Virus record (IMG/VR): IMGVR_UViG_3300047548_000908
Coordinates: 62,001 to 126,000 of that record
From: a virus
DNA: 64,000 bases
Strand: one strand, 5' to 3'
Positions 1,931 to 62,251 of this stretch are shown piece by piece (position 1 is the first letter of the stretch; each line of letters opens with the position of its first letter). The notes beneath the pieces are model-generated. The model did not search any database and had not been told where the DNA came from. It saw only the letters and a list, made by a program, of their open reading frames with translations. The position numbers and the translations under genes are program-made.

Positions 1931-2055
1931 TGTTTTGTGTCATCTTTCTTATTAATTCGACGTTTAATTGCGCCCCAAATGGGGCACCAAATGAAGCCAG
2001 AAACAAACCCAAATGCAAAAATGTTAAGCATGTCGAGTATAGAATTATAATCCAT
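1927..2055 (-). CDS. small single-pass membrane protein, 42 aa
   Basis: A 42-codon gene. The translation has a hydrophobic stretch with Trp and Gly (FAFGFVSGFIWCPIWGAI) followed by a basic tail KRRINKKDD, giving one predicted membrane helix with the C-terminus inside. The start ATG shares a base with the queE stop (TGATG), and its own TGA overlaps the glycosyltransferase start (ATGA). This double coupling fills the queE-glycosyltransferase gap exactly and is the main reason to call it real. Function unknown. Confidence 0.6.
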   Translation of the reverse strand: MDYNSILDMLNIFAFGFVSGFIWCPIWGAIKRRINKKDDTKQ

Positions 2056-2927
2056 CAAGTACCCCATTCATTCTTAAAAAGCGGCACTTGAAGTCTATCA
2101 CTATAACGTAATCCATGCTTCATTGCAAGCTCCGCCACTCGGCGATTATTTAATGAGTAAACAGTTTCCACGCCACCCACAGGCATAAGATATACAGGCC
2201 CACGAAAGCCGACATTACGATAAAGAAGGGTAGCTTCAAGAGCCTCATTGGCATCGTCTTCGGTAGCGACCACAAACTTGAGATAAGTGTATCCAATTTC
2301 TTCATATTCTAAAACAACCTCAGGTTTAATTGCGTCCTCCCTCGTTTCGCCACTACAACTTAGCTTAGGGCTAACACTAAATGTAATCTCCCCTCCATTA
2401 CCATTCGGAAATCTTTCTTGATTCCAAGACTTTAAATACTCTTTAAACTCTGTTGTGAGTCGTTGAGTGCCATTAGTTTCGAACGTTAGTTCTTTTAATG
2501 AACGCATCTTAGGATGCTTTAGTAGTTCAGGATATGCTCTCTGCCACCCTAGTAGTGGCTCACCACCTGTAATAACAAGATGCTCATCTTGCCATTCCTT
2601 ATTGGGCAATAGTCCTATGATAGACTCTGCGATGTCATCGGTGTCATATGAATCTGACAAATGTTTAAACGAAGGATGCCAGCTAGCATAGCTGTCACAT
2701 CCAGTAGATACTAGCGGTAGCTCATGGTAGAACTTGAATTCATGAATGCGTTCTGCTACCTTGTCTGCCTCAGTTGACTTCTTTCCCTTAGGCATGCCAA
2801 ATCCAGCACACTTGAAGTTGCATCCAAACGTTCGTAAGAACACGGATGGCACGCCCATAAAACGACCTTCTCCTTGAATCGAATAAAACAGTTCAGCTAC
2901 TTTTATTTTTGCCATTGATTTTTCCAT
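2055..2927 (-). CDS. queE: 7-carboxy-7-deazaguanine synthase QueE
   Basis: Radical SAM enzyme converting 6-carboxytetrahydropterin to 7-carboxy-7-deazaguanine (CDG). The N-terminus has the QueE signature ELFYSIQGEG (residues 12-21) and FLRTFGC; ITGGEP near residue 119 is the SAM-binding GGE motif. The cluster cysteines are unusual: C36 and C40 are followed by a ~36-residue insertion before C77-D78, instead of the standard CX3CX2C. 290 residues is longer than typical QueE (210-245), largely because of this loop. The first ATG overlaps the queD stop (TAATG); a second ATG four codons in (MAKIKV) has GGA upstream and could be the real start. Part of the FolE-QueD-QueE operon. Confidence 0.9.
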   Translation of the reverse strand: MEKSMAKIKVAELFYSIQGEGRFMGVPSVFLRTFGCNFKCAGFGMPKGKKSTEADKVAERIHEFKFYHELPLVSTGCDSYASWHPSFKHLSDSYDTDDIAESIIGLLPNKEWQDEHLVITGGEPLLGWQRAYPELLKHPKMRSLKELTFETNGTQRLTTEFKEYLKSWNQERFPNGNGGEITFSVSPKLSCSGETREDAIKPEVVLEYEEIGYTYLKFVVATEDDANEALEATLLYRNVGFRGPVYLMPVGGVETVYSLNNRRVAELAMKHGLRYSDRLQVPLFKNEWGT

Positions 2928-3430
2928 TAATTAAAAAGGTCTTCGTTCCATTCTCGATGACCTTCTCTGAACGCCATGTTGCTTTGAGTTTCACGAACTT
3001 CTACACGGTAGCACCAAAGGCGCTCTGCTTCGCCCGGGCCCCAGTATTGAGGAATGTAAACTCCGTTGACAAATTTGTATAACATATCAGCGAGTCCTTC
3101 GCAGCCTAGTCGAGGCAAGATGGTTAGCTTAGCCAATTTCTTGACCTGAAGATGCTTGAATAGCTCAAGCTCGGGATCATCTTCAGCCACTAGCAATGTG
3201 TGATCGAACTGATCCTCAAGTATTTTCTTTAGTTCTTTCAGTCCACCATAATCGGCGGCCCAATTGCGAACGTCTAGATCGTTAGTTCCAAAGTAAAACT
3301 TCATGCTGAAACTGTAACCATGGATCAAATTACAATGACTGTCTGCTCTCCATTGGCGATAAGCACAGGGAAATGCATCGTGATATTCCTTTGTGCTTGT
3401 AAATTTATATGTGGTTGGTTGATGTTGCAT
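2927..3430 (-). CDS. queD: 6-carboxy-5,6,7,8-tetrahydropterin synthase QueD
   Basis: PTPS/QueD-family T-fold enzyme that turns dihydroneopterin triphosphate into 6-carboxytetrahydropterin, the substrate of QueE encoded immediately downstream. Visible features: SHCNLIHGYSF, with the zinc-ligand histidines; AADYGGLKELKKIL followed by DQFDHTLL, the usual D-[FYG]-x-L-K and LDH elements; and the C-terminal EVRET glutamate motif. The ATG at 3430 is chosen because AGGAGAAGAAGG precedes it; an upstream in-frame TTG would put that Shine-Dalgarno sequence inside the gene. 167 residues, longer than bacterial QueD (about 120) but usual for phage versions. Confidence 0.88.
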   Translation of the reverse strand: MQHQPTTYKFTSTKEYHDAFPCAYRQWRADSHCNLIHGYSFSMKFYFGTNDLDVRNWAADYGGLKELKKILEDQFDHTLLVAEDDPELELFKHLQVKKLAKLTILPRLGCEGLADMLYKFVNGVYIPQYWGPGEAERLWCYRVEVRETQSNMAFREGHREWNEDLFN

Positions 3431-3569
3431 CCTTCTTCTCCTCAAGAATCTTTGCTAGTTTATCAGCACTAGAACGAATAGCATAGGTCAAAACTACGTC
3501 ACCTATTTCTTTTTCAACTAGTGCTGATATTCTATAAAGTTCCTCTATCTCTTTTTCAGATAGAGTCAC
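3405..3569 (-). CDS. small helical protein, 54 aa (GTG start)
   Basis: Open frame between folE and queD. GTG at 3567-3569 overlaps the folE stop codon (GTGA) and the frame runs 54 codons, ending 26 bases inside queD in another frame. The product is acidic/basic and strongly helical (SEKEIEELYRISALVEKEIG, then ADKLAKILEEKK). It fills a gap of ~135 bases in an otherwise tightly packed operon. There is no convincing Shine-Dalgarno sequence; translation would depend on coupling to folE. It may instead be untranslated leader of queD. Confidence 0.4.
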   Translation of the reverse strand: MTLSEKEIEELYRISALVEKEIGDVVLTYAIRSSADKLAKILEEKKDATSTNHI

Positions 3570-23204: not shown

Positions 23205-24074
23205 TTACGTTGAGCTTGATCTCTTATAAATGCTATATGCTTCTTTTTCCTTCCATTCTTCGCGCTCTGGGTCATATATTTCTATGTCATGGGAGGGTTG
23301 AACACCCATAAATGGTGTCATCTTAACGAAGTTTTTTCTTGTCAAATACACGCATTGGCCGCCTATCCAAAGTTCGTTACCTTCTTCTTCGTGAACCATA
23401 ACACTGGATAAGGTCGCGGAAGTGTGCAGAGTCATGCCTGTCTTTTGCGGGCTGTAAGCCTCAGGAATTTGTTTCGCTAACTCTTCACAAGTAATTGAGA
23501 ACGTCGATTCAATCTGTTGTCTTACCTCATCATTAGGAGGATTGCTAATGTATCGAATGATATCATTGTACGAGGAATCCGGAACGCCTAGTTTCTGAAA
23601 GACATCATTTATATCTTTTACTGAAGCTGTTTGTGACCCTAGTGTTACTTCGATGTTCCAAATATCAGGTGTATTTGTACAACCTATTTTAACTCCATCG
23701 AATGGAATGACAGCGATAGTAAGATCCTCTCTCCAAAATAATGCTTCTGATCTGTTTCGTGAGGTTGTGGCTATTATTGAATTTTGTCTTTTAGGGAACG
23801 CAGACATTGACGGTATACTATCAAATATTTGAGTATAGTGGTTGCTTGTACTCGTACTGGCCCTGGTAGAACCAGTAGGATCAACTATTGCACCTGTAAC
23901 CTTAGGGTTCCTCAACATGTCATATTCTCGCCACCCGACTGATCTCCATATTGGAGTACCATTTTCAAACATCCAAAGTGAATCCTTGCAGTTGTTTTTA
24001 AGAGCATCTTTAATCATATAAAAAATCTTGGTATTGATTTTTAGTTCTTCGGTTACAAACTCTCTAGCTCTCAT
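23205..24074 (-). CDS. putative ADP-ribosyltransferase-like effector, paralogue 3
   Basis: 289 residues, more divergent. N-terminus MRAREFVTEELK follows the capsid-signal pattern. Conserved blocks: TPIWRSVGW (Arg), TSNHYTQIFDSIPSMSAFPKR, NSIIATTS, VIPFDGVKIGC, TGMTLHTSATLS and GNELWIGGQC (Glu). A charged C-terminal extension of ~40 residues is not shared with the other copies. GGAAGAAAA precedes the ATG. The spacer after it (23090-23204) is structured. Confidence 0.48.
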   Translation of the reverse strand: MRAREFVTEELKINTKIFYMIKDALKNNCKDSLWMFENGTPIWRSVGWREYDMLRNPKVTGAIVDPTGSTRASTSTSNHYTQIFDSIPSMSAFPKRQNSIIATTSRNRSEALFWREDLTIAVIPFDGVKIGCTNTPDIWNIEVTLGSQTASVKDINDVFQKLGVPDSSYNDIIRYISNPPNDEVRQQIESTFSITCEELAKQIPEAYSPQKTGMTLHTSATLSSVMVHEEEGNELWIGGQCVYLTRKNFVKMTPFMGVQPSHDIEIYDPEREEWKEKEAYSIYKRSSST

Positions 24075-24091: not shown

Positions 24092-24550
24092 TTAATATGG
24101 TTCTGTTATTGATTCAAACTCTGATGGATCGCCAGATATCTTATATACGGTAAAATCGTTAGGTTCAAACTCTACATTTGGTATCTTTTTCCAAGTAAAT
24201 CCACCACCAGTTTCGTATATACTATGATGAATATCAATCATGTAGACTCCCTCTTGTACTTGAATGACCGAGTATACATGCTGCTCATGATCTGAACTTA
24301 CGGTAGTAGAGGGTACTTCTGGTTTCAGTGACCAAAAGAAACTAACAAGAGCATCTGCGATAAGATGACAAATGCCTCCTCCTGCATATGTATCTCTATC
24401 GTCCTCATCCCAATCATTATAAACTTCTTGTGCGACTGAAGCAAGTTTAGGAAGCATTTGTTTTATTTCGTCAATGCTTCTAAGGTGAGAGTAGTCTTGT
24501 TCTTCATCTTCGTACTCTTCAAATAGATTAATAAATTCGCTTGCTCTCAT
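24092..24550 (-). CDS. putative papain-fold cysteine hydrolase effector
   Basis: 152 residues with the N-terminus MRASEFINLFEEYEDEE, again of the MRxxEF type. A possible Cys-His-Asp triad can be read: GGGICHLIADALVSFFW (Cys at a helix start), QHVYSVIQV (His on a strand) and VYMIDIHHS (Asp), the order of NlpC/P60-, transglutaminase- or papain-like enzymes. No family can be named. It could be a protease, deamidase or acyltransferase. Overlaps the following metallopeptidase-like gene (ATGA). Confidence 0.4.
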   Translation of the reverse strand: MRASEFINLFEEYEDEEQDYSHLRSIDEIKQMLPKLASVAQEVYNDWDEDDRDTYAGGGICHLIADALVSFFWSLKPEVPSTTVSSDHEQHVYSVIQVQEGVYMIDIHHSIYETGGGFTWKKIPNVEFEPNDFTVYKISGDPSEFESITEPY

Positions 24551-24927
24551 TCAATGATCTCCGGATGCTTTTTTACATAAATCTTGATATACATTCCAGC
24601 CATCATATCTGCTTCTGCTTCAATAGGAGATCCCGGATAACTATCACCTGGTTTTATCTTTCCATCTTGGTGTTGCTTTGCGTGAGTTAGTTCATGGAAA
24701 ATAGTTCTGAAGATATCGATAAGATTTCTGTTACCGATATAAATCCAAATGTGATTTTCGTCTGGCTTGTTTACGCCAGTGTGATGCCCTTCTTGAGCTT
24801 TATTTGAGTCTGAGCTAAAAGTTATCTTAGGATAAGGTTTTTCTAATCCAAGTACGTTTATAGACCATTTAACAAAGTCCAATATCTGTTGGTTTCTCTT
24901 GGCATTAACGAATTCGTCTGATTTCAT
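24547..24927 (-). CDS. putative zinc metallopeptidase (HExxH)
   Basis: 126 residues. FHELTHAKQHQDG (about 88-100) contains the HExxH zinc motif, and the downstream EAEADMMAG supplies the third-ligand Glu in the pattern of ImmA/IrrE- and SprT-like peptidases. The N-terminus MKSDEFVNAKRN loosely fits the capsid-signal series but has no clear cleavage site. The late promoter core at 24935-24941 overlaps the stop of the hydrolase gene and would start two bases before this ATG. Confidence 0.6.
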   Translation of the reverse strand: MKSDEFVNAKRNQQILDFVKWSINVLGLEKPYPKITFSSDSNKAQEGHHTGVNKPDENHIWIYIGNRNLIDIFRTIFHELTHAKQHQDGKIKPGDSYPGSPIEAEADMMAGMYIKIYVKKHPEIIE

Positions 24928-25525: not shown

Positions 25526-26278
25526 TTACTTTTGAAAATACTCTGTATAACTTTCGCTAGTTATACCAATGCATGGTCCGCTAAACCAAACTTCTTTATC
25601 CTTCGGACGTTCGCTCACATATTCAGACATTGTTAACAATCTCAACCCAGTACGTGCAGGAGCTAACCTTTCCCATATTAACGGAATAAATTGATGAGGC
25701 TTGATTTCATCTGTTATTTCTTCTAGCCTTTCTTTGAACTCTGGAGTTCTTGTCCAGAGAATCATCGAGTCAAAGCTATCGCTTTTGAATCCAAGATGTG
25801 TTTTTAGAAAGTAGTTAAACCCCTCCATACCATTGCCGGGCCTGGTTTCAAAACCTATCTCAGGAATCGAAAGCGGAGTATCCCAAAAGTCTCTTTCTGG
25901 GCATACTGCAATTTTAGTTCCATTGTATGGAATTAGTATAAAAAGCTCCCCGAACCCTCCGGAGTATACTTTTGTACTTGAGCATATAAAACTATTGCTT
26001 CTTTTTGGCCAACCATTCATAAACGGAGAATTATCTAATAAAAGAGTATAATGGTTAGAAGTGTTTTGAGACTTTCGTATACCCGTACTAGGATCGAGTG
26101 TGTCGTAATATGGTTCACTTAGGTCACGAAACCCTCTCCATATTGGAAAGTCTAAGAAATTAATAGATAGTGCTTCACTACAATACTTTTGTAAGTCTTG
26201 AGGAAAATTTTTAATGTCTCCGGCGAACGCTGTGTAAGGAGTTATTTGCGCTTCCGATAAAATTTCACTAATTTTCAT
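25526..26278 (-). CDS. putative ADP-ribosyltransferase-like effector, paralogue 4
   Basis: 250 residues. N-terminus MKISEILSEAQITP contains LSE-AQ, a good prohead protease site. Shared elements: FPIWRGFRDL (Arg about 47), TSNHYTLLLDNSPFMNGWPKR, NSFICSST, LIPYNGTKIAV, TGLRLLTMSEYV and DKEVWFSGPC (Glu). The most diverged copy but every block is in order. The ATG overlaps the stop of the gamma-glutamylcyclotransferase-like gene. Confidence 0.48.
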   Translation of the reverse strand: MKISEILSEAQITPYTAFAGDIKNFPQDLQKYCSEALSINFLDFPIWRGFRDLSEPYYDTLDPSTGIRKSQNTSNHYTLLLDNSPFMNGWPKRSNSFICSSTKVYSGGFGELFILIPYNGTKIAVCPERDFWDTPLSIPEIGFETRPGNGMEGFNYFLKTHLGFKSDSFDSMILWTRTPEFKERLEEITDEIKPHQFIPLIWERLAPARTGLRLLTMSEYVSERPKDKEVWFSGPCIGITSESYTEYFQK

Positions 26279-27196: not shown

Positions 27197-30100
27197 TCAA
27201 TGGAACATTAGATAACTGTCAATCACATCTTTGCGATTAGCAGCCCTGTCTCCTGCACCTGGTTGCACTATTACATTCCACTTTGGAACATTACTAGGTG
27301 GAATAGAAAGCATTTCATCATAAGATATAATCGTATTTACATCCACATCGTACTTATCTGCTAGACGCTGCTTAAATAAATCTAATGCTTCTTGGTTCTT
27401 GAATTGAGTCCTGCCTTGTTCATCTTTGATAAGCTTTGTTCCTTCCCTAGCGATCAAGTCAAAGAACATACTTTTAGGAACAGTGATTCCCTGTTTCACT
27501 ACATTACCTTGCTTCTTATGAAACTCAATCTTCTTAACTTCAGATGACTTTGATCCACTGCTAAAATTAATAATGAAGTTATCTGGTTTGTCGTCAGTGG
27601 CTACGTCTGCGATTTTAGTGTAAGCATAGAATTCAACCGCTGGATTCTTTTTTGCTACTTCGTATGCCATATTCAAGTATTCTTTACTGAAGAAGTCACC
27701 TGCATCGTGCCAACGAACTACCAACTTTATTCCTTTCTTATCCATCTTCTTTTTGATATCATGAATTTCTTGATTTACCATATTCATGTATCCTTCAGGA
27801 TCATTTACTAAAAAGTTTAAAGCTTGTGCTGCACTCATACTAGAATTAGGGAACATAATGTATCCTCCTTTTCTAGCGTAACAAAACAATTGACACTCGC
27901 CTGCTTTTGGACAAGTAGTTATTTCTACAAACTCACCGGTCTCTTCATCAATTACAAGCCCTTTCAATGCAGGGAGAGTTAGATCATATATGATCTCTCC
28001 TTCCTTCGCAGATTTCTTCATCTTGGCGTTTGTCCCTAGGATAGAAGATGGTCTCTTAGTAATCTTATTGGCCAAGTCTTCCAAATCCCACACATCTTCG
28101 CCGTCGTCGCTTTTTGTTATTTTTACATTACTTGCATGTATAATAGGGCCAGTCACTTTTTCTTTCTTTGACTTCGTTCCCTTCATAGTGCGATCAACGT
28201 AACCATAGATTTCTTCGTGCCCTAGTCTACGATGAGGTGCGTTAAGGCCGATTGCTTCATCGACAACCTTAGTGATTGGCTTTACCTGAAATCCGCCTAG
28301 TGTTTTTTCATTTAGCTTAGACTGTACCTCTCTATCTTTGGGTCGATTGCCAAGTTCACGATCTTTTGCTTCTTTATAATCAATGAAGTCTCTTCCTAGT
28401 TTTTTAGCTAAGATTTGCTCTTCGTCTAACGCAGCTTCAGATACTGACTTTGATGAACTTTTTTTCTTTTTTACGCAATTGTTTACTCTTACTCCACCTT
28501 TAATTTTAGTGCCAGATTTTCTGTACCCTTTCCAACATTTTGGATCTAGTCTTTGTTTAATCTTTTTTGCTTCTGCGACCTCACTCTCTTTTAGAGTGAG
28601 TCCCTCTGACATATTCGTCAAACTTTTCCTAACTGCTCTAGCAACGTCTTGAGCTAGCGCAGTCGGGTCACCTTCACCATAATTTAATACACTAGTGATT
28701 GCAGCTTGAATAACTCTATCACCTGCTTTTCTAGCTAAGTTGGGATAGGATTGTTCAAATGCTGTATAGATTTCGTCAGCACGGGTTTCGTCATCTTCAT
28801 TTACAAACTTTTTGCTTGTTCTAATTCCACCAAAGATACTACCTTTTCCTTTTGTTCTAGAATGAGTAACGCCAATTGGAAATGCCATTGGTGCAACGCT
28901 ACTTGCAGATGTCATTTCGGTTAACCATCCCAAGTCTCTATTACTATCCCATGCTCCGATTCTTATTCCATTTTCATTTAGAGCTTCATACTTCCCTGAT
29001 TTTACATGAGAAATCTTTCCCTCTAGTACTTTTACTGCCGACACCCAAACTTTTTGATCAGTAAATTTTTTCTTTGATTCTAGGAACGTACTGCTTCTCC
29101 CAAACTTTGGTGCTTGACTATCTGCGCCATATGGATTACTTGCAGGAGTGACTACGCTTTCTGTTTTTCTGCTAGCTTTCATTTCACTTAACCCCATGTT
29201 TTTCTTCGCAATATCCATTAGCTGTTTTATCCATTCTGAGTCAAGTTTCTTTGCACCAAAGTCTCCGCTGTTATACGCTTTTTGCCATGCTGCAAATTGT
29301 TGCTCAGGTGAAGCATTTGGGTCTTTTAGTATGTTTCTCAAATATGTCCCACTGACCCCTGTTCCTCCCTTTTCAGACTCTCTTGGAGTAACATAAGGCA
29401 TTGCTTTAACATGCTCGTATCCAGCAAACTTATTGACTGCTCTCATCAGAGACTTGCTCCAGTTAGCTGCCATACTCTCACGATCAGTACCAACTGTTAT
29501 GATAACATTATCAAATCTAGGAGGCTGACCGGGTCTAGGATTTATAAGTTCGTGTTTAATTTTTTGTAATAGGTTGCCACCCTCTTGAGTTACAGTTGAA
29601 ATATTGTTTGCATATTGAGGGTACAACTTTTGCCATGTTTGTACTTTGACGCTAGGTGGAATAGGATCATCTTTTCCTTCTGCTGGTCCAATGAACATGA
29701 AGGGTTCTCCACCGACTTCGTTTGCTTTGTCAATTGCATACTTAAACAGTTGTTGATGTCCAACATGACCTATTGCGCTACCTACTGCAACTACTGCTGT
29801 CTTGTTCGATCTTGGCCCAGAGGAAACTGGAGTAGCTTTCTTTGCAGCCATAATATCCTTCATTTCTTGGCTAGTTACCTTTAACACCATTCCACTAGGC
29901 ATGTTGATAACTAAACCTTCTATGACTTTGCCGAGTTGATCTTTTCCTTTGATAGCAGGGCTATTTATAATTGCATCTGATACTTGTTTCTTTGCAGACG
30001 ATAAGAATTTTCTAACCTGTTCCTTTTCTGGAGTCAATCCCTTTGTCTTTAACGTCGCAGTAATCTCGTTTTCATTTTCTAATACTTTATCAACTATAGG

Positions 30101-31906
30101 ACCTAACTGAACTCCCTTTTGTTTCAAAGCATTGTTCACTACTTTTATATTGGGACTGCTCAGTGAAAGTAACTTTTTCTTTATCTCCATTCCATCAGGT
30201 CTATCTTCACCTGTGCTGAATGATTTGATAAAGATAGGAACGAGGGTCATTACTTTTCCTAACTTCTTTGGATCGTATGTGATGTTAACAAACTTGTATC
30301 CGCCATCAGATTTCTGAGCCATTGCGTTGAACATCATCTCTGCTTGAACAATAGTATCGGATGGAAGACTTTTCACAAGATCGCTAGTTAGGATAATCTT
30401 CAATGCCTTGTCATAGTTCTTTGTGAATTCTAAACGCTCTGCATCTTGACCTACGCTGATTCCGTATTTTTCAAAATCACCATAGTTCTCAATATACTTA
30501 GGCTCTGTTACCCTCGAAGTCATGAAGAAAGGTTTTCCAGACTCATCTTTTCCAAAGCGAATTCCTGCACCATCTGCTTTTAAGTTAATTTGAACATTGT
30601 CTAATGTTCCACCATTCTCTGCGATTTCTTTGCAGAATGCAATAAAATCAAGGTCTTGTATTTCTGTACTTGAACCTGGATTGTATATATGCTGAACACC
30701 CTTTCTCTTAAAGTTCGGCTTAATTGTGGCCTCTCTTAAAGACTCAGTTGGAGTCATCTTATAGTTATCTTTGTATTGCTTTATCATAGGAAGCAAGTCG
30801 CTTGGTTTTTCTAGACCTAGCACTTCCATTGCCTTGTTGATAGCTACGGTCTTTTCTGTTATGTCACGATCGGGATCATTCTTGTAAATACCTTGTGCAC
30901 CAGGTCCTACTGTTTTTTCTAAAAATGTTCTAAAAACAGTCTCCTTTTCTTCCTGTGATAAAACAGAACTCATAATTTCAAGTAACCCAACAAAAGACCA
31001 AAGCTTATTAGAAACTTTCTTTAGACTTGCAGGAGACAATCTTTTTCCAAACAGACTTAAAAATATTTTGCCTACATTTTGTTCGTAGCCTGCCGCAGGT
31101 GCAGCAGACATAACTGGAAGACCATCTTTTACTAATGGCGTATTTCCATCCATAACTGGAACATATTTTATTCTTAATCCGCCCCCTTCTTTGGAGGAAA
31201 CTGCAAACGAAAACATATTGTCTACAGTGGGTACATCCTCTTCTTTTCTTTTCTTCCCTTTGCCTACCATTTTTCTCAAAAGAAATTCTCTTTTGGTTAA
31301 TGAGGCTAATGACTGAATTAAGAATTTATGGAAAACTCCTTTGATAGAGTTTTGCATATCGTCCCAAGAAGAAGAGTGAGAAAATCTTGACCATTCAGTA
31401 GGAAGACCTTGATCGAAAGATACAAACTCAAAATCGATTTGAATAGTTATCGGTAAATCTTCAAATCTCCAAAGACTTGAGTACTGTTCATTACCACGCT
31501 GATATCCAATGAATATAGCTGGTCCAACTTGTTTACCTTTAACGTCATTGAGGAATGCAGCGAGTGTGGTTTCTTTCTCTTTATCAACCATTGTGTCGAT
31601 ATCACCGACCTTTGGTTTTACTTTAGTAAAAGTCTCATCAGAGATATTCACATCATTAAAGAAGTGCAATGATGATCCACTTAGGAACGTTCTATTCTTT
31701 AGTAAGGTGGGTTCCCATAGATTTGAGCCTGCATGTTGTCTGTATGCTTTGTCGATGCTCAATAGCAAGGTATTCAAAAGGGGAACCATAAAGCTTCTTT
31801 TGTGAACTAGCAGATTGATTTGTTCAGCTTCATGTCCATCTAGTGATAGATTTCCTCCCTCCATTATAGGGGTGCGTATTCTAGTAGAAAGTTCAAATAT
31901 TTTCAT
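27197..31906 (-). CDS. giant multidomain protein: NTase, ligase-like, NMNAT-like, GP88 domains
   Basis: 1569 residues. N-terminus MKIFELSTRIRTPIMEGGN has IME-GG, a possible prohead protease site. Domains read in order: a nucleotidyltransferase-like region (FLSGSSLHFF, VGDIDTMVD about 100, IQIDFEFV); a nucleic-acid-ligase-like adenylation region with LKADGAGIRFG (K-x-DG, about 445), VQAEMMF, IEGLVIN (about 662) and MVLKVTS; a cytidylyltransferase/NMNAT-like domain with IGHVGHQQL (HxGH, about 713) and GVSGTYLRNIL; a cysteine motif CWKGYRKSGTKIKGG..NC seen in phage virion proteins; and a C-terminal GP88-type domain (CPKAGECQLFCYARKGGY, VRWHDAGDFF). Further sites such as VAE-AK and VSE-AA lie between domains. 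Promoter variant CTAAATA is about 20 bases upstream. Domain activities are motif-based. Confidence 0.6.
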   Translation of the reverse strand: MKIFELSTRIRTPIMEGGNLSLDGHEAEQINLLVHKRSFMVPLLNTLLLSIDKAYRQHAGSNLWEPTLLKNRTFLSGSSLHFFNDVNISDETFTKVKPKVGDIDTMVDKEKETTLAAFLNDVKGKQVGPAIFIGYQRGNEQYSSLWRFEDLPITIQIDFEFVSFDQGLPTEWSRFSHSSSWDDMQNSIKGVFHKFLIQSLASLTKREFLLRKMVGKGKKRKEEDVPTVDNMFSFAVSSKEGGGLRIKYVPVMDGNTPLVKDGLPVMSAAPAAGYEQNVGKIFLSLFGKRLSPASLKKVSNKLWSFVGLLEIMSSVLSQEEKETVFRTFLEKTVGPGAQGIYKNDPDRDITEKTVAINKAMEVLGLEKPSDLLPMIKQYKDNYKMTPTESLREATIKPNFKRKGVQHIYNPGSSTEIQDLDFIAFCKEIAENGGTLDNVQINLKADGAGIRFGKDESGKPFFMTSRVTEPKYIENYGDFEKYGISVGQDAERLEFTKNYDKALKIILTSDLVKSLPSDTIVQAEMMFNAMAQKSDGGYKFVNITYDPKKLGKVMTLVPIFIKSFSTGEDRPDGMEIKKKLLSLSSPNIKVVNNALKQKGVQLGPIVDKVLENENEITATLKTKGLTPEKEQVRKFLSSAKKQVSDAIINSPAIKGKDQLGKVIEGLVINMPSGMVLKVTSQEMKDIMAAKKATPVSSGPRSNKTAVVAVGSAIGHVGHQQLFKYAIDKANEVGGEPFMFIGPAEGKDDPIPPSVKVQTWQKLYPQYANNISTVTQEGGNLLQKIKHELINPRPGQPPRFDNVIITVGTDRESMAANWSKSLMRAVNKFAGYEHVKAMPYVTPRESEKGGTGVSGTYLRNILKDPNASPEQQFAAWQKAYNSGDFGAKKLDSEWIKQLMDIAKKNMGLSEMKASRKTESVVTPASNPYGADSQAPKFGRSSTFLESKKKFTDQKVWVSAVKVLEGKISHVKSGKYEALNENGIRIGAWDSNRDLGWLTEMTSASSVAPMAFPIGVTHSRTKGKGSIFGGIRTSKKFVNEDDETRADEIYTAFEQSYPNLARKAGDRVIQAAITSVLNYGEGDPTALAQDVARAVRKSLTNMSEGLTLKESEVAEAKKIKQRLDPKCWKGYRKSGTKIKGGVRVNNCVKKKKSSSKSVSEAALDEEQILAKKLGRDFIDYKEAKDRELGNRPKDREVQSKLNEKTLGGFQVKPITKVVDEAIGLNAPHRRLGHEEIYGYVDRTMKGTKSKKEKVTGPIIHASNVKITKSDDGEDVWDLEDLANKITKRPSSILGTNAKMKKSAKEGEIIYDLTLPALKGLVIDEETGEFVEITTCPKAGECQLFCYARKGGYIMFPNSSMSAAQALNFLVNDPEGYMNMVNQEIHDIKKKMDKKGIKLVVRWHDAGDFFSKEYLNMAYEVAKKNPAVEFYAYTKIADVATDDKPDNFIINFSSGSKSSEVKKIEFHKKQGNVVKQGITVPKSMFFDLIAREGTKLIKDEQGRTQFKNQEALDLFKQRLADKYDVDVNTIISYDEMLSIPPSNVPKWNVIVQPGAGDRAANRKDVIDSYLMFH

Positions 31907-31966: not shown

Positions 31967-34900
31967 TTACCTGCGTAACAAAGTTTTCATATCATACCAA
32001 TTAGTATGGAATGCATAATATTCTCCGTTAATTAGAATTTCATGACCTGACTGCAAGGCTCGGTGCATTTTATCATTTCTAAGCCCATGTCGATCTATTA
32101 GTTCTTTTACGTCAATCGAACTCCAATCAATTTTCACGTTTGAGTTAACCCATCTCCAAAGATCCAACAGTATTGCTTTGGAATACTTACTTATAAACAT
32201 GCCATCAGTTTTGCTATTCAAATGAGAACCAGTGATGTCTACGATACTGTTAATTCTAGGTTCTAGCCAATCTTTGTTACTAGAATCCATACGATTGCCA
32301 CTTTCTAAAAATTGATGTACTTCTTCAATGAACATAATAGCTTTCTTTTTTTCTTCATCGGAAATAGAAAGTGCGTTTGACTGAATGTCTCTCTTCAATA
32401 ACCTAAGACATCTAAGAATCATACTCTTTCTTGCAGGTAAAGGTACACCCTTTTCCCCGGTAAGGAATGAATCCAGCCCGGGGTATTGAGAAACAAATTC
32501 TTCATAAAAGTCTTTATATTTCTCGCTCCATGTAAAGGTGAATCCGTTCTTAGGAAAAATGTAATATACATTGTCCTTTCCGTATATTTCTGCAAACGAA
32601 AAGCTTGAAGTGCAGTACAAAGAATTACCACGTAACGCTGTAAAACCAGCCGATTTTAGTACAGTATCAACGACAGTTTGTATTTCGACAGGTGTATCCA
32701 TTGGCTTTTTTCTAGGCTTCGTGTAGTCCCAAAACGCAACAGGTATGTTTTTCTCTAGTGCTCCTTTTATTCCTCGATATAAAAAGGTGTCACTAGATCC
32801 AAGCATTTTCAAAAATTCACTGCATTCAGTTCGTATAAGTTCCGCTGGATCAACATCTTCGGGAATGGGAACTAAAGTCAATTTAGGAGCCTCATCCTCT
32901 TCTCTTAGCAGAGGGGGAACACCGTTCCTCTTAATCTTTGAACCTAACTTAGCTGCATTCTTCTGCATTGTGTCTGGTTTTATATCCACAGTCAGAGCAG
33001 TTTTAAATCTTGGATCGTTGGCTTCTTTTTTGCTTGGAATGTATCCTGACGCTGATTCATTAACACTACGAGGTATCAACAACTCGGGCATTCTATAGTC
33101 ATCTACATTAGCTTGGTCGTACGGCTTAAGAGACTTCTTATACTTCAATGCTGCTGCTTCTTTTTCTTCGTCAGTTTTTGCTCTGTAGAACTTATTAGCA
33201 AATACCATATCTCCCACTAATGTGCCAGGAACAATTTCTACCTTAGCTGGTTTATAGTATCGTAGTTTTTCTGGATCTTTACCTGTGAGGCTATAAAATG
33301 TTGATATCCATTTGTCAGGGTGTAGCGCAAAAGTATGAGTTTTTCTTTCTGGAACTAACTCTGCAAGTGGATCGTTACCTTTGAAAAACTTAGGTAATTT
33401 TTGTAAGTGTGTAGCTGTTTTTTCTTCATTAACTTGGCCTTCGTGTTCACCTCGGATTGCTCTGTCTACATAGTCACTTGATACTTCTTGTTCAAGGTCT
33501 ATTTGAACCCCTAATTTTTTTGCCAATTTAATAATTGCATTTCGTGCCGATTGGTCTTTGTAGATCGCAGAAAGACTTCTTTGCCCTTCATCATATTCAT
33601 CCCAGTCTTGCATTAATGGGATAACATTGGGTATCTTTTTTAGTTCATTGAAGAGGTGTTGTTGAAGTTCGGCATCCGTAGCATCGGGGAAGTTTGGATT
33701 AACACATACAAATTCTATTTCTTTGTAGCTTGTTTTACTTTCACTCAGTTGCTGATAGTCATGCGTCTCATATTCCACTAAGATGCTTTCTAATAAATCA
33801 GAAACTACTTTGATATTTGATGGAGGTATCCTAGAAGTGATTGCGATTTCATAGTCTGCTCCATCGATTGTTTTAACTGGTAGACCAAATGTACTGATTG
33901 CTAGCAATGCGAGTTCTTCATTTTCTTCTAGTTCGTCCCCTAGCCAATTCATTAATGCATCGTGTACTGAATCCTTATCCTTAAAGCAGTAGATTGCAGG
34001 AGTGTCTTCTCCTATTTTTTTCGATCTATCACCGATCTTAGGAATTAATCCCCTAGCCAAAATAGGATTCAGATTTTTCTTCAGAGTGACATGATAAACA
34101 GTTTTTGGAATACCAGTTGATTCTTCAAGATTGGCTTTGTTCAATTTAGTGTAATAGTTAGGATCTTCCTTAAGGTGATCCAATGCAATTTGCATAGCAA
34201 TCTTTTTGTCATAAGTATGCTCTAATTCTACTTGAATGCCTTTTTTTAATTGTGCTTTTATTTGCTGAACAGTTACTTTATGTCGTTTGGCAAGTTGATC
34301 AACAGACAAAGTTTTTTTGTTTAACGGTGATGATTCTGGTAAACTTAGTCGTATATCGTGTAGATCATTTTTTGTTTGATGTAGTTTATCAATGACACCT
34401 TGTGTTCTAAGCACTTTGAATGCAAGATTTTCAGGACCAAACTCACCGTGTTTGTCTAATCCAGCTTGGCGATATCTCTTTATAACTCTGAGTAGTTCAT
34501 CTATCTTCTTTTCATCTTTGGCTTTGATTGCAGCATCTGCGATATCTGCGAGCTTTTCATACTTTAACCTTGCTGCGGTTTCATCTACACCTGATCTTCT
34601 TTTCTTTGGTATGTGCAACCATTTATCATGCAAAACACTATACTCACCTAAACTAATTACAGGCTCAGCCGCATCCTGTACATATAATTCAACTTCGTAC
34701 CCTCGAATGAATATGTCATGATATTCGTTGTACAGATTCTTTTTCTCTTTGAATAGCTCTTTATAAATTTCATCATTGGAAAGTTTTGTCATATCCACTA
34801 GGATATGCAAATCGATGTCACTATGCTTAGTGTAGGAGTAAGCTGCATTTGATCCAGATATAGTTATATCTTCGATATCTAAATCAGAAATACCCAAATA

Positions 34901-35044
34901 TTCTATGAAGTCTTCAGCAATGAGTAACAGTCTATCTCTTACTTCTGCCCGTAGCTCTTCGTTTTTAAACAATGCAGGATTTAGCTCATCATGAAATTTG
35001 ATCGCATCATCAAGTCGAAATTTATCTAGTTCAGTTAGTTTCAT
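31967..35044 (-). CDS. giant multidomain protein: NTase plus two ART-like domains
   Basis: 1025 residues. N-terminus MKLTELDKFRLDDA. A Pol-beta-type nucleotidyltransferase motif comes first (ISGSNAAYSYTKHSDIDLHI, about 64-83, with the second acidic strand VELYVQD). Then DUF5661-like VELEHTYDKKIAMQIALDHL; a KptA/PARP-like segment starting YHVTLKKNLNPILARGLIP (about 318); SGYIPSKKEANDPRFK, a motif I know from phage proteins; and a C-terminal ART-like region with FLYRGIK (about 755), LYCTSSFSFAEIYG (about 815) and YIFPKNGF. VNE-SA between domains fits a processing site. Late promoter core at 35066-35072. Possibly a packaged nucleotidyl/ADP-ribosyl-transferring effector. Confidence 0.55.
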   Translation of the reverse strand: MKLTELDKFRLDDAIKFHDELNPALFKNEELRAEVRDRLLLIAEDFIEYLGISDLDIEDITISGSNAAYSYTKHSDIDLHILVDMTKLSNDEIYKELFKEKKNLYNEYHDIFIRGYEVELYVQDAAEPVISLGEYSVLHDKWLHIPKKRRSGVDETAARLKYEKLADIADAAIKAKDEKKIDELLRVIKRYRQAGLDKHGEFGPENLAFKVLRTQGVIDKLHQTKNDLHDIRLSLPESSPLNKKTLSVDQLAKRHKVTVQQIKAQLKKGIQVELEHTYDKKIAMQIALDHLKEDPNYYTKLNKANLEESTGIPKTVYHVTLKKNLNPILARGLIPKIGDRSKKIGEDTPAIYCFKDKDSVHDALMNWLGDELEENEELALLAISTFGLPVKTIDGADYEIAITSRIPPSNIKVVSDLLESILVEYETHDYQQLSESKTSYKEIEFVCVNPNFPDATDAELQQHLFNELKKIPNVIPLMQDWDEYDEGQRSLSAIYKDQSARNAIIKLAKKLGVQIDLEQEVSSDYVDRAIRGEHEGQVNEEKTATHLQKLPKFFKGNDPLAELVPERKTHTFALHPDKWISTFYSLTGKDPEKLRYYKPAKVEIVPGTLVGDMVFANKFYRAKTDEEKEAAALKYKKSLKPYDQANVDDYRMPELLIPRSVNESASGYIPSKKEANDPRFKTALTVDIKPDTMQKNAAKLGSKIKRNGVPPLLREEDEAPKLTLVPIPEDVDPAELIRTECSEFLKMLGSSDTFLYRGIKGALEKNIPVAFWDYTKPRKKPMDTPVEIQTVVDTVLKSAGFTALRGNSLYCTSSFSFAEIYGKDNVYYIFPKNGFTFTWSEKYKDFYEEFVSQYPGLDSFLTGEKGVPLPARKSMILRCLRLLKRDIQSNALSISDEEKKKAIMFIEEVHQFLESGNRMDSSNKDWLEPRINSIVDITGSHLNSKTDGMFISKYSKAILLDLWRWVNSNVKIDWSSIDVKELIDRHGLRNDKMHRALQSGHEILINGEYYAFHTNWYDMKTLLRR

Positions 35045-61903: not shown

Positions 61904-62251
61904 ATGATCAGACCTATATGCAAACTATGTAATAGGAATCACAGGGCTGTAAATTACCACCGAAACGGCAAGACTTACTACCGAAGTTGTTGCGATTCAT
62001 GCGGAAGAAAGAAATCCAAAAAGTCCCCATGGAAACCCACTTGGGAAAAAAGCGGATATAAGAAAAAAGCCACATGTGACTTATGTGGCTTTAGAAGTGT
62101 TTACTCCTCACAGATTACCGTGTTTCATATTGACGGCAAATTAGAGAATACTGAGTTCTCTAATCTTCGGAGCGTATGTTTGAATTGTGTAGAAGTTATA
62201 AAAAGAAAAGACCTTAATTGGAAACGAGGCGATTTAGAAGTCGATTATTGA
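61904..62251 (+). CDS. HNH-like zinc protein
   Basis: 115 residues from ATG 61904. RPICKLCNRNHRAVNYHRNGK, SCCDSCGRKKSKKSP, KKATCDLCGFRSVYSSQITVFHIDGKLENTEFSNLRSVCLNCVEVI: four CxxC pairs with a central H-x-D-G and N-x-L-R-x-V-C like the HNH fold. A protein with this plan is conserved in marine T4-like phages. The usual catalytic His pair is only partly visible. Plus strand, ends overlapping the convergent gp1 gene by 18 bases. Confidence 0.68.
   Translation: MIRPICKLCNRNHRAVNYHRNGKTYYRSCCDSCGRKKSKKSPWKPTWEKSGYKKKATCDLCGFRSVYSSQITVFHIDGKLENTEFSNLRSVCLNCVEVIKRKDLNWKRGDLEVDY

Follow-up and report, generated by a model that had tools for sequence, protein, structure and literature searches.

Does a very long reading frame in a T4-like phage encode one working protein, or a chain of enzymes that would be carried in the head and cut apart there? 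The question is raised by P0001, an ORF in a 64,000-nucleotide stretch of DNA (the window; positions 62,001 to 126,000 of IMG/VR record IMGVR_UViG_3300047548_000908). The source record is linear, comprises 137,127 bases, comes from a large T4-like myovirus and contains 22 tRNA genes; its tail sheath is closest to those of Agrobacterium phage Atu_ph07 and Pseudomonas phage PA5oct. The single frame of 1569 residues given in the original prediction was confirmed; it opens with ATG and lies on the minus strand (Table 1). GP88 was its only Pfam match, and PHROGs contributed weak links to families, one of them a cytidyltransferase family.

A scan of IMG/VR yielded 121 relatives of P0001; a further, alignment-based scan yielded 138. 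Among the fetched IMG/VR loci, residues 1–908 are kept as a single polypeptide in 91 ORFs (68 distinct), which hold nucleotidyltransferase (NTase), K-x-DG and HxGH units in each chain. Such a strategy had been described as unusual for T4-like phages, a view that these numbers do not sustain. Residue invariance refers below to an alignment of the fused core from 53 of the relatives. The reading that we consider reasonably probable is that P0001 is a head-packaged cargo polyprotein, processed by a gp21-type protease, whose enzymes would be injected and would act on nucleic-acid ends.

Table 1. Features of P0001, with window coordinates. Arrows mark predicted cleavage positions.
Feature	Coordinates	Strand	Basis
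Whole ORF P0001, 1569 aa	27197..31906	(-)	ATG start; stop at 27197-27199
Residues 1-16, capsid-targeting-like leader MKIFELSTRIRTPIME	31859..31906	(-)	pLDDT <50 at 1-17; consensus in relatives
Predicted prohead-protease site IME16↓G17 (IME16↓GGN)	31856..31861	(-)	E16, G17 and N19 invariant in 53 relatives
Residues 17-392, Pol-beta-type nucleotidyltransferase (G77S78, G101DID104, D158)	30731..31858	(-)	Alignment, model, weak TUT1 fold match
Predicted prohead-protease site LRE392↓A393, NTase/ligase	30728..30733	(-)	pLDDT <50 at 385-395; 30/42 relatives
Residues 393-698, K-x-DG covalent nucleotidyltransferase, RNA-ligase-like	29813..30730	(-)	Invariant motifs; Foldseek
Residues 699-908, HxGH adenylyl/cytidylyltransferase	29183..29812	(-)	Invariant motif; FAD synthetase matches; hhalign
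LSE908↓M909, end of conserved core	29180..29185	(-)	M909 aligns with start Met of standalone cargo gene
Residues 909-1200, second cargo segment, variable, linker-like	28307..29182	(-)	Homologous pieces in separate 710-aa L010 gene
Residues 998-1035, degenerate SAGAT..GSxA-type module	28802..28915	(-)	L010/L006 cargo and MCP sequences, partly by eye
VAE1112↓A1113, site from the original prediction	28568..28573	(-)	VAE[AGS] enrichment in relatives' tails
Residues 1114-1149, mobile 35-aa module with KQRLDPKCWKGYRKSGTKIKGGVRVNNCV	28460..28567	(-)	Domain E 2.8e-22
LNE1200↓K1201, site at GP88 segment start	28304..28309	(-)	Matches the end of standalone GP88 leaders
Residues 1201-1569, GP88 domain segment (CPKAGECQLFCYA, RWHDAGDFF)	27200..28306	(-)	PF17338 E 8.6e-34

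Domains of the conserved core

The AlphaFold2 model of residues 1–910 (mean pLDDT 88.8, pTM 0.48) contains three separate confident domains. Since pLDDT falls below 50 solely at residues 1–17, 385–395 and 693–698, the core is read as separate domains on flexible linkers rather than as one continuous fold, the outcome that had been named as speaking against a polyprotein. The three domains are supported by sequence and model alike.

The N-terminal domain has the NTase motifs originally noted, GS77-78, GDID101-104 and D158, all invariant in the 53 relatives. Foldseek matched it weakly to TUT1, with a probability of at most 0.35. No Pfam NTase family matched any of the 53 members; no profile thus places the domain in RlaP or another named NTase family, and we do not file it as RlaP. 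Searching the PDB by sequence with profiles of both the NTase and the ligase returned nothing useful. The second domain likewise carries the K-x-DG motif that had been proposed, within K443ADG446, and motifs I, III, IV and V (K443-D445-G446, E523, E663-G664 and K676) are invariant. Pfam RNA-ligase families found no match among the 53 members, and Foldseek retrieved the RNA ligases 5d1o (archaeal), 6n67 (Trl1), 2hvq (T4 Rnl2) and 6vt4 (Naegleria), with DNA ligases ranking below them. The modelled ligase fold is nearest to RNA ligases, which suggests a putative role in RNA joining. Among viral models, the fold of the core matched cytidyltransferase proteins of cyanophages, along with RNA ligases of phages.

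In the third domain, HVGH714-717 is accompanied by R857 of the C-terminal S/T-x-x-R motif, with fold matches, and H714, G716, H717 and R857 are invariant. FAD synthetase and NaMN adenylyltransferase were its Foldseek matches, and the FAD synthetase profile was matched, weakly, in 49 of the 53 members (best E 4.8e-5). For the label 'NMNAT-like', HxGH adenylyltransferase with FAD synthetase as nearest match is the better description, and the suggested role in NAD synthesis does not follow from the profile that was matched. The likeness of this domain to FAD synthetase and NaMN adenylyltransferase, and the existence of phage NAD salvage (PMC9503650), would fit a protein that restores NAD or FAD cofactors against NAD-depleting defence, with the HxGH domain as the main enzyme and no part in RNA repair. 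This is unlikely in our judgement: besides the weakness of the FAD synthetase match, it leaves the conserved NTase and ligase unexplained.

Leader and predicted cleavage sites

The start of P0001 (MKIFELSTRIRTPIMEG) resembles a capsid-targeting sequence, in agreement with the capsid-like signal first proposed, and the consensus across relatives is MxLxELF...LxE↓GGN. In T4, the first ten residues of IPIII are enough for targeting, and gp21 cleaves after L/I-X-E (PMC9026906). Leader-like starts (M[KR]x1-3[ED][FIL]) are present in 11 of the 53 minus-strand ORFs of the window and in 11 of the 16 ORFs of the 13-35.5 kb block that holds P0001; at internal Met positions the pattern occurs in 1%.

Sites of the form [LI]xE[AGS] were counted in 42 diverse relatives and compared with within-segment residue shuffles. 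The leader contained 39 against 4.3 expected (in 37 of the 42 relatives) and the NTase–ligase linker 30 against 4.1 (7.3x, in 30 of the 42), and control patterns (D, Q, K, reversed) were unenriched in both segments. The NTase core was depleted (3 observed, 24.6 expected). The HxGH core had 3 against 11.0, although depletion in the ligase and HxGH cores is less clean, as some control patterns deviate there too. The ligase–HxGH linker had no [LI]xE[AGS] site in any of the 42 proteins, contrary to the claim that sites separate these two domains. From this pattern, supported by sequence and model, the expected products are the leader, the NTase, a ligase–HxGH pair and tail pieces.

The conserved, site-free linkage of ligase and HxGH would also suit a protein that is packaged, loses its leader and otherwise stays full length as one injected multi-domain 'polyvalent' protein; many-domain polyvalent phage proteins are known, and the N4 virion RNAP is packaged unprocessed (PMC5512222). 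We hold this to be improbable, given that sites are depleted within the NTase domain and strongly enriched in the NTase–ligase linker, at the place that corresponds by homology to the leader site of a ligase encoded on its own.

The sites originally listed, MSE-GL, VAE-AK and VSE-AA, do exist (MSE1101-G, VAE1112-A and VSE1157-A), but all lie around one short module (~1100-1160), and the better-supported IME16↓G, LRE392↓A, LSE908↓M and LNE1200↓K were absent from that list. At the 908, 997 and 1200 sites, P1' is M, M and K, where A, G or S is usual. VAE[AGS] is enriched in the tails of relatives (19 observed, 1.3 expected) and unenriched in their cores. QGVAEG recurs as a separator between modules in relatives' tails (L155, L168) and, from sequence, probably represents protease sites. 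Of 12 contigs from relatives, 6 carry the gp21-type protease family Peptidase_S77, as do all four isolates tested; the 137-kb record, which is possibly a fragment, gave no match. In most Gp23-type capsid proteins of the relatives, LxE precedes S or A around residue 41, the expected place. Judged from these sequence features, P0001 is probably packaged in the head and cut.

Several other genes of the window were recorded, all on the minus strand. The adjoining 1025-aa ORF (31967-35044) is a leader-bearing fusion with a Pol-beta-like NTase start and DUF5661, and by eye has ART-like stretches (FLYRG...SLYCTSS). Two related leader-bearing ORFs (23205-24074 and 25526-26278; phrog_12810) are possibly ADP-ribosyltransferase-like, again by eye. 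A standalone metallopeptidase-like ORF with a leader (24547-24927) contains HELTHAKQ; a similar module is inserted behind the leader in L008 and L027, and among the fused relatives a HELTHA metallopeptidase-like module occurs between leader and NTase. A ferritin-like/Dps-type gene (PF00210; 26710-27168) lies directly downstream of P0001, and QueE- and QueD-like genes of the deazapurine pathway occupy 2055-3445.

Standalone homologues and the joined tail

Standalone NTase, ligase and GP88 genes have capsid-targeting-like leaders that end at homologous sites. The CP220 NTase begins MKLSELMFILE-GGN. Distinct genes encode the NTase and the ligase in L277, a T4-like phage contig that was binned with an Anaerolineae genome; they start MLISFGEFLNE-GGN and MGFEKYLQE-AEIAASKRKG, and the ligase leader site, LQE↓A, aligns with the NTase–ligase junction of the fused proteins. 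The genes for NTase, an uncharacterised protein, ligase and HxGH enzyme adjoin in X1 and YB07. By eye, the gene between NTase and ligase in X1, YB07 and L277 (L092 7029-8033, L278 4190-5026, L277 7087-8403) has D/E-x-K-like stretches that suggest a nuclease-type fold.

The standalone NTases of X1, Va1 and YB07 begin M-GGN, equivalent to the N-terminus predicted after cleavage at E16. These leaderless enzymes may work unpackaged, as would P0001 if it were a cytoplasmic multi-enzyme protein made during infection whose leader and sites are non-functional. That seems very improbable, however, as the leader and LxE↓GGN occur in nearly all fused members and the P0001 gene lies within the block rich in leader-like starts.

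Relatives also indicate how the C-terminal part arose. Their core gene stops at 908 aa (L103) or 913 aa (L100), and the next leader-bearing gene overlaps the stop. From residue 909 (MKASRKTESVVTPAS), P0001 aligns with the start (MKINNLLESITPAS) of a separate 710-aa cargo gene in L010, behind which GP88 has a gene of its own. Most GP88 genes elsewhere likewise stand alone, and the leaders of many end E..LGGF; the standalone GP88 of L201 has ...TKLNE↓TTLGGF, and P0001 retains KLNE1200-KTLGGF, where the structure model is disordered. P0001 is therefore most plausibly an in-frame joining of three cargo genes, a fusion history supported by sequence and model. The GP88 domain named in the original prediction was confirmed by PF17338 (residues 1292-1469, 117.8 bits against a gathering cut-off of 24.4), and the segment is up to 77% identical to standalone relatives. 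A radical SAM assignment for GP88 is not claimed, the NifB/TIM-barrel fold matches being weak (E >0.005).

The combination of core, second cargo and GP88 was found in no other fetched record. That the outer joining stems from an error in sequencing or assembly, or from a one-base event of very recent date, is possible but rather doubtful. GP88 is on no fused-core protein besides P0001, the gene boundary of relatives falls at the first joint, and codon 909 is closely preceded by a GGGG run (29192-29195), where a single base would set the two frames apart; this joint could thus have come from a one-base event or error. One base is insufficient, however, for the second junction (~1165-1200), which lacks the GP88 start Met and most of the leader, and other relatives have different long fused tails, with lysozyme, LysM, ParB and HD modules. 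An error here is compatible with a packaged, processed core, and the fusion of the core (1-908) is independent of the outer joining in P0001.

Two modules of the tail region have counterparts elsewhere. The one at residues 998-1035 resembles the predicted mature N-terminus of the relatives' major capsid protein. This N-terminus (ES/A-x-AGATSAGN; L189-L196, L006, L010, L040) itself resembles a module inside cargo proteins. The conserved 35-aa module with KQRLDPKCWKGYRKSGTKIKGGVRVNNCV, which had escaped the original prediction, occurs in 55 distinct contexts in other proteins and in 92 phage records, chiefly of cyanophages. It had no Pfam family match and no confident fold in structure prediction, and our literature search found no mention of this CWKGY module. 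It is basic, with two Cys (KQRLDPKCWKGYRKxGTKxKGGVRVNNCV; L001-L080), and is N-terminal, internal or C-terminal in many unrelated phage proteins.

We lean slightly towards the view that jumbo T4-like phages form true polyproteins in this manner: neighbouring capsid-cargo genes would be joined in frame, their leaders would erode, the prohead-protease tripeptide at the junction would be kept, and the maturation protease would release matched enzymes for nucleic-acid ends, ready for injection.

Proposed role and known systems

In the processed-cargo reading, the leader would direct P0001 into the prohead core, as capsid-targeting sequences do for T4 internal proteins. A gp21-type prohead protease would remove the leader by cutting after E16 and free the NTase from the ligase–HxGH pair by cutting after E392, and probable tail cuts near 908, 1107-1112, 1157 and 1200 would release extra cargo, the GP88 domain among it. 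All these fragments would then enter the host together with phage DNA. The original idea of a capsid-processed polyprotein is thus largely supported by comparison, through the separate domains, the enriched gp21-type sites, the protease of relatives and the standalone leaders; the cut between ligase and HxGH and the supposed rarity of the arrangement drop out. A point against processing is that, for Campylobacter phage IBB_35, which has a standalone NTase relative, the published proteome reported most virion proteins at their predicted mass (PMC3322345).

Because the NTase, the RNA-ligase-like domain and the HxGH enzyme travel together, fused or as neighbours, they most likely serve one shared pathway that acts on the ends of RNA (or of nucleic acids). 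In it, the NTase would restore nucleotides, the ligase would seal, and the HxGH enzyme would make or recycle an activated nucleotide cofactor. RNA-end repair is the leading candidate for the trio's role, which we propose tentatively; the HxGH enzyme is the least explained, with no clear place in standard RNA repair. If the processed-cargo reading is correct, capsid targeting would extend from one leader on one protein, as in T4, to processed multi-enzyme polyproteins, with a simple evolutionary route to them and three conserved enzymes that many phages may deliver at infection. L/I-x-E at domain junctions, depleted inside domains, would then be a signature for injected cargo in uncultured phages.

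Among known systems, the cyanophage DUF6267 and cytidyltransferase proteins (S-PM2, Syn1) have an HxGH domain homologous to that of P0001 (hhalign, 97%), and an S-PM2 cytidyltransferase-containing protein matches the core model over 650 columns; no homologous NTase was found in these cyanophage systems. DUF6267 has KWDG by eye, but as a homologue of the ligase domain it reached only 0.2% in hhalign and is kept as a lead; Va1_166 reached 0.7%. For jumbo phages, the repair of cleaved tRNAs by Pol-beta NTases together with RNA ligases has been proposed (PMC7824862), and the trio may act in a similar way. Their ATP-grasp RNA ligase and RlaP resemble the trio in pairing a Pol-beta NTase with an RNA-ligase fold, whereas the trio matches neither family in Pfam, has an HxGH enzyme in addition and belongs to a leader-bearing polyprotein. 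With the GP88 family (PF17338), P0001 shares its C-terminal domain, fused to the trio in this window only.

Polyvalent proteins, described from phages and conjugative elements (Iyer et al. 2017, PMC5512222), are, like P0001, large, multi-domain, phage-encoded and thought to be packaged, and relatives of P0001 hold lysozyme, ParB, HD and metallopeptidase-like modules. The account of those proteins stresses embedded peptidases, whereas the P0001 sites fit the head's own prohead protease; Pfam identified no embedded peptidase in P0001, and the metallopeptidase-like module is confined to some relatives. Unlike in polyvalent proteins, NTase, ligase and HxGH form a fixed trio in the P0001 family. 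The T4 internal proteins and Alt share with this family a short leader, an LxE site, a gp21-type protease (in relatives) and T4-type head genes. P0001 differs from them in carrying several enzymes per chain, with conserved internal predicted sites, known here from sequence.
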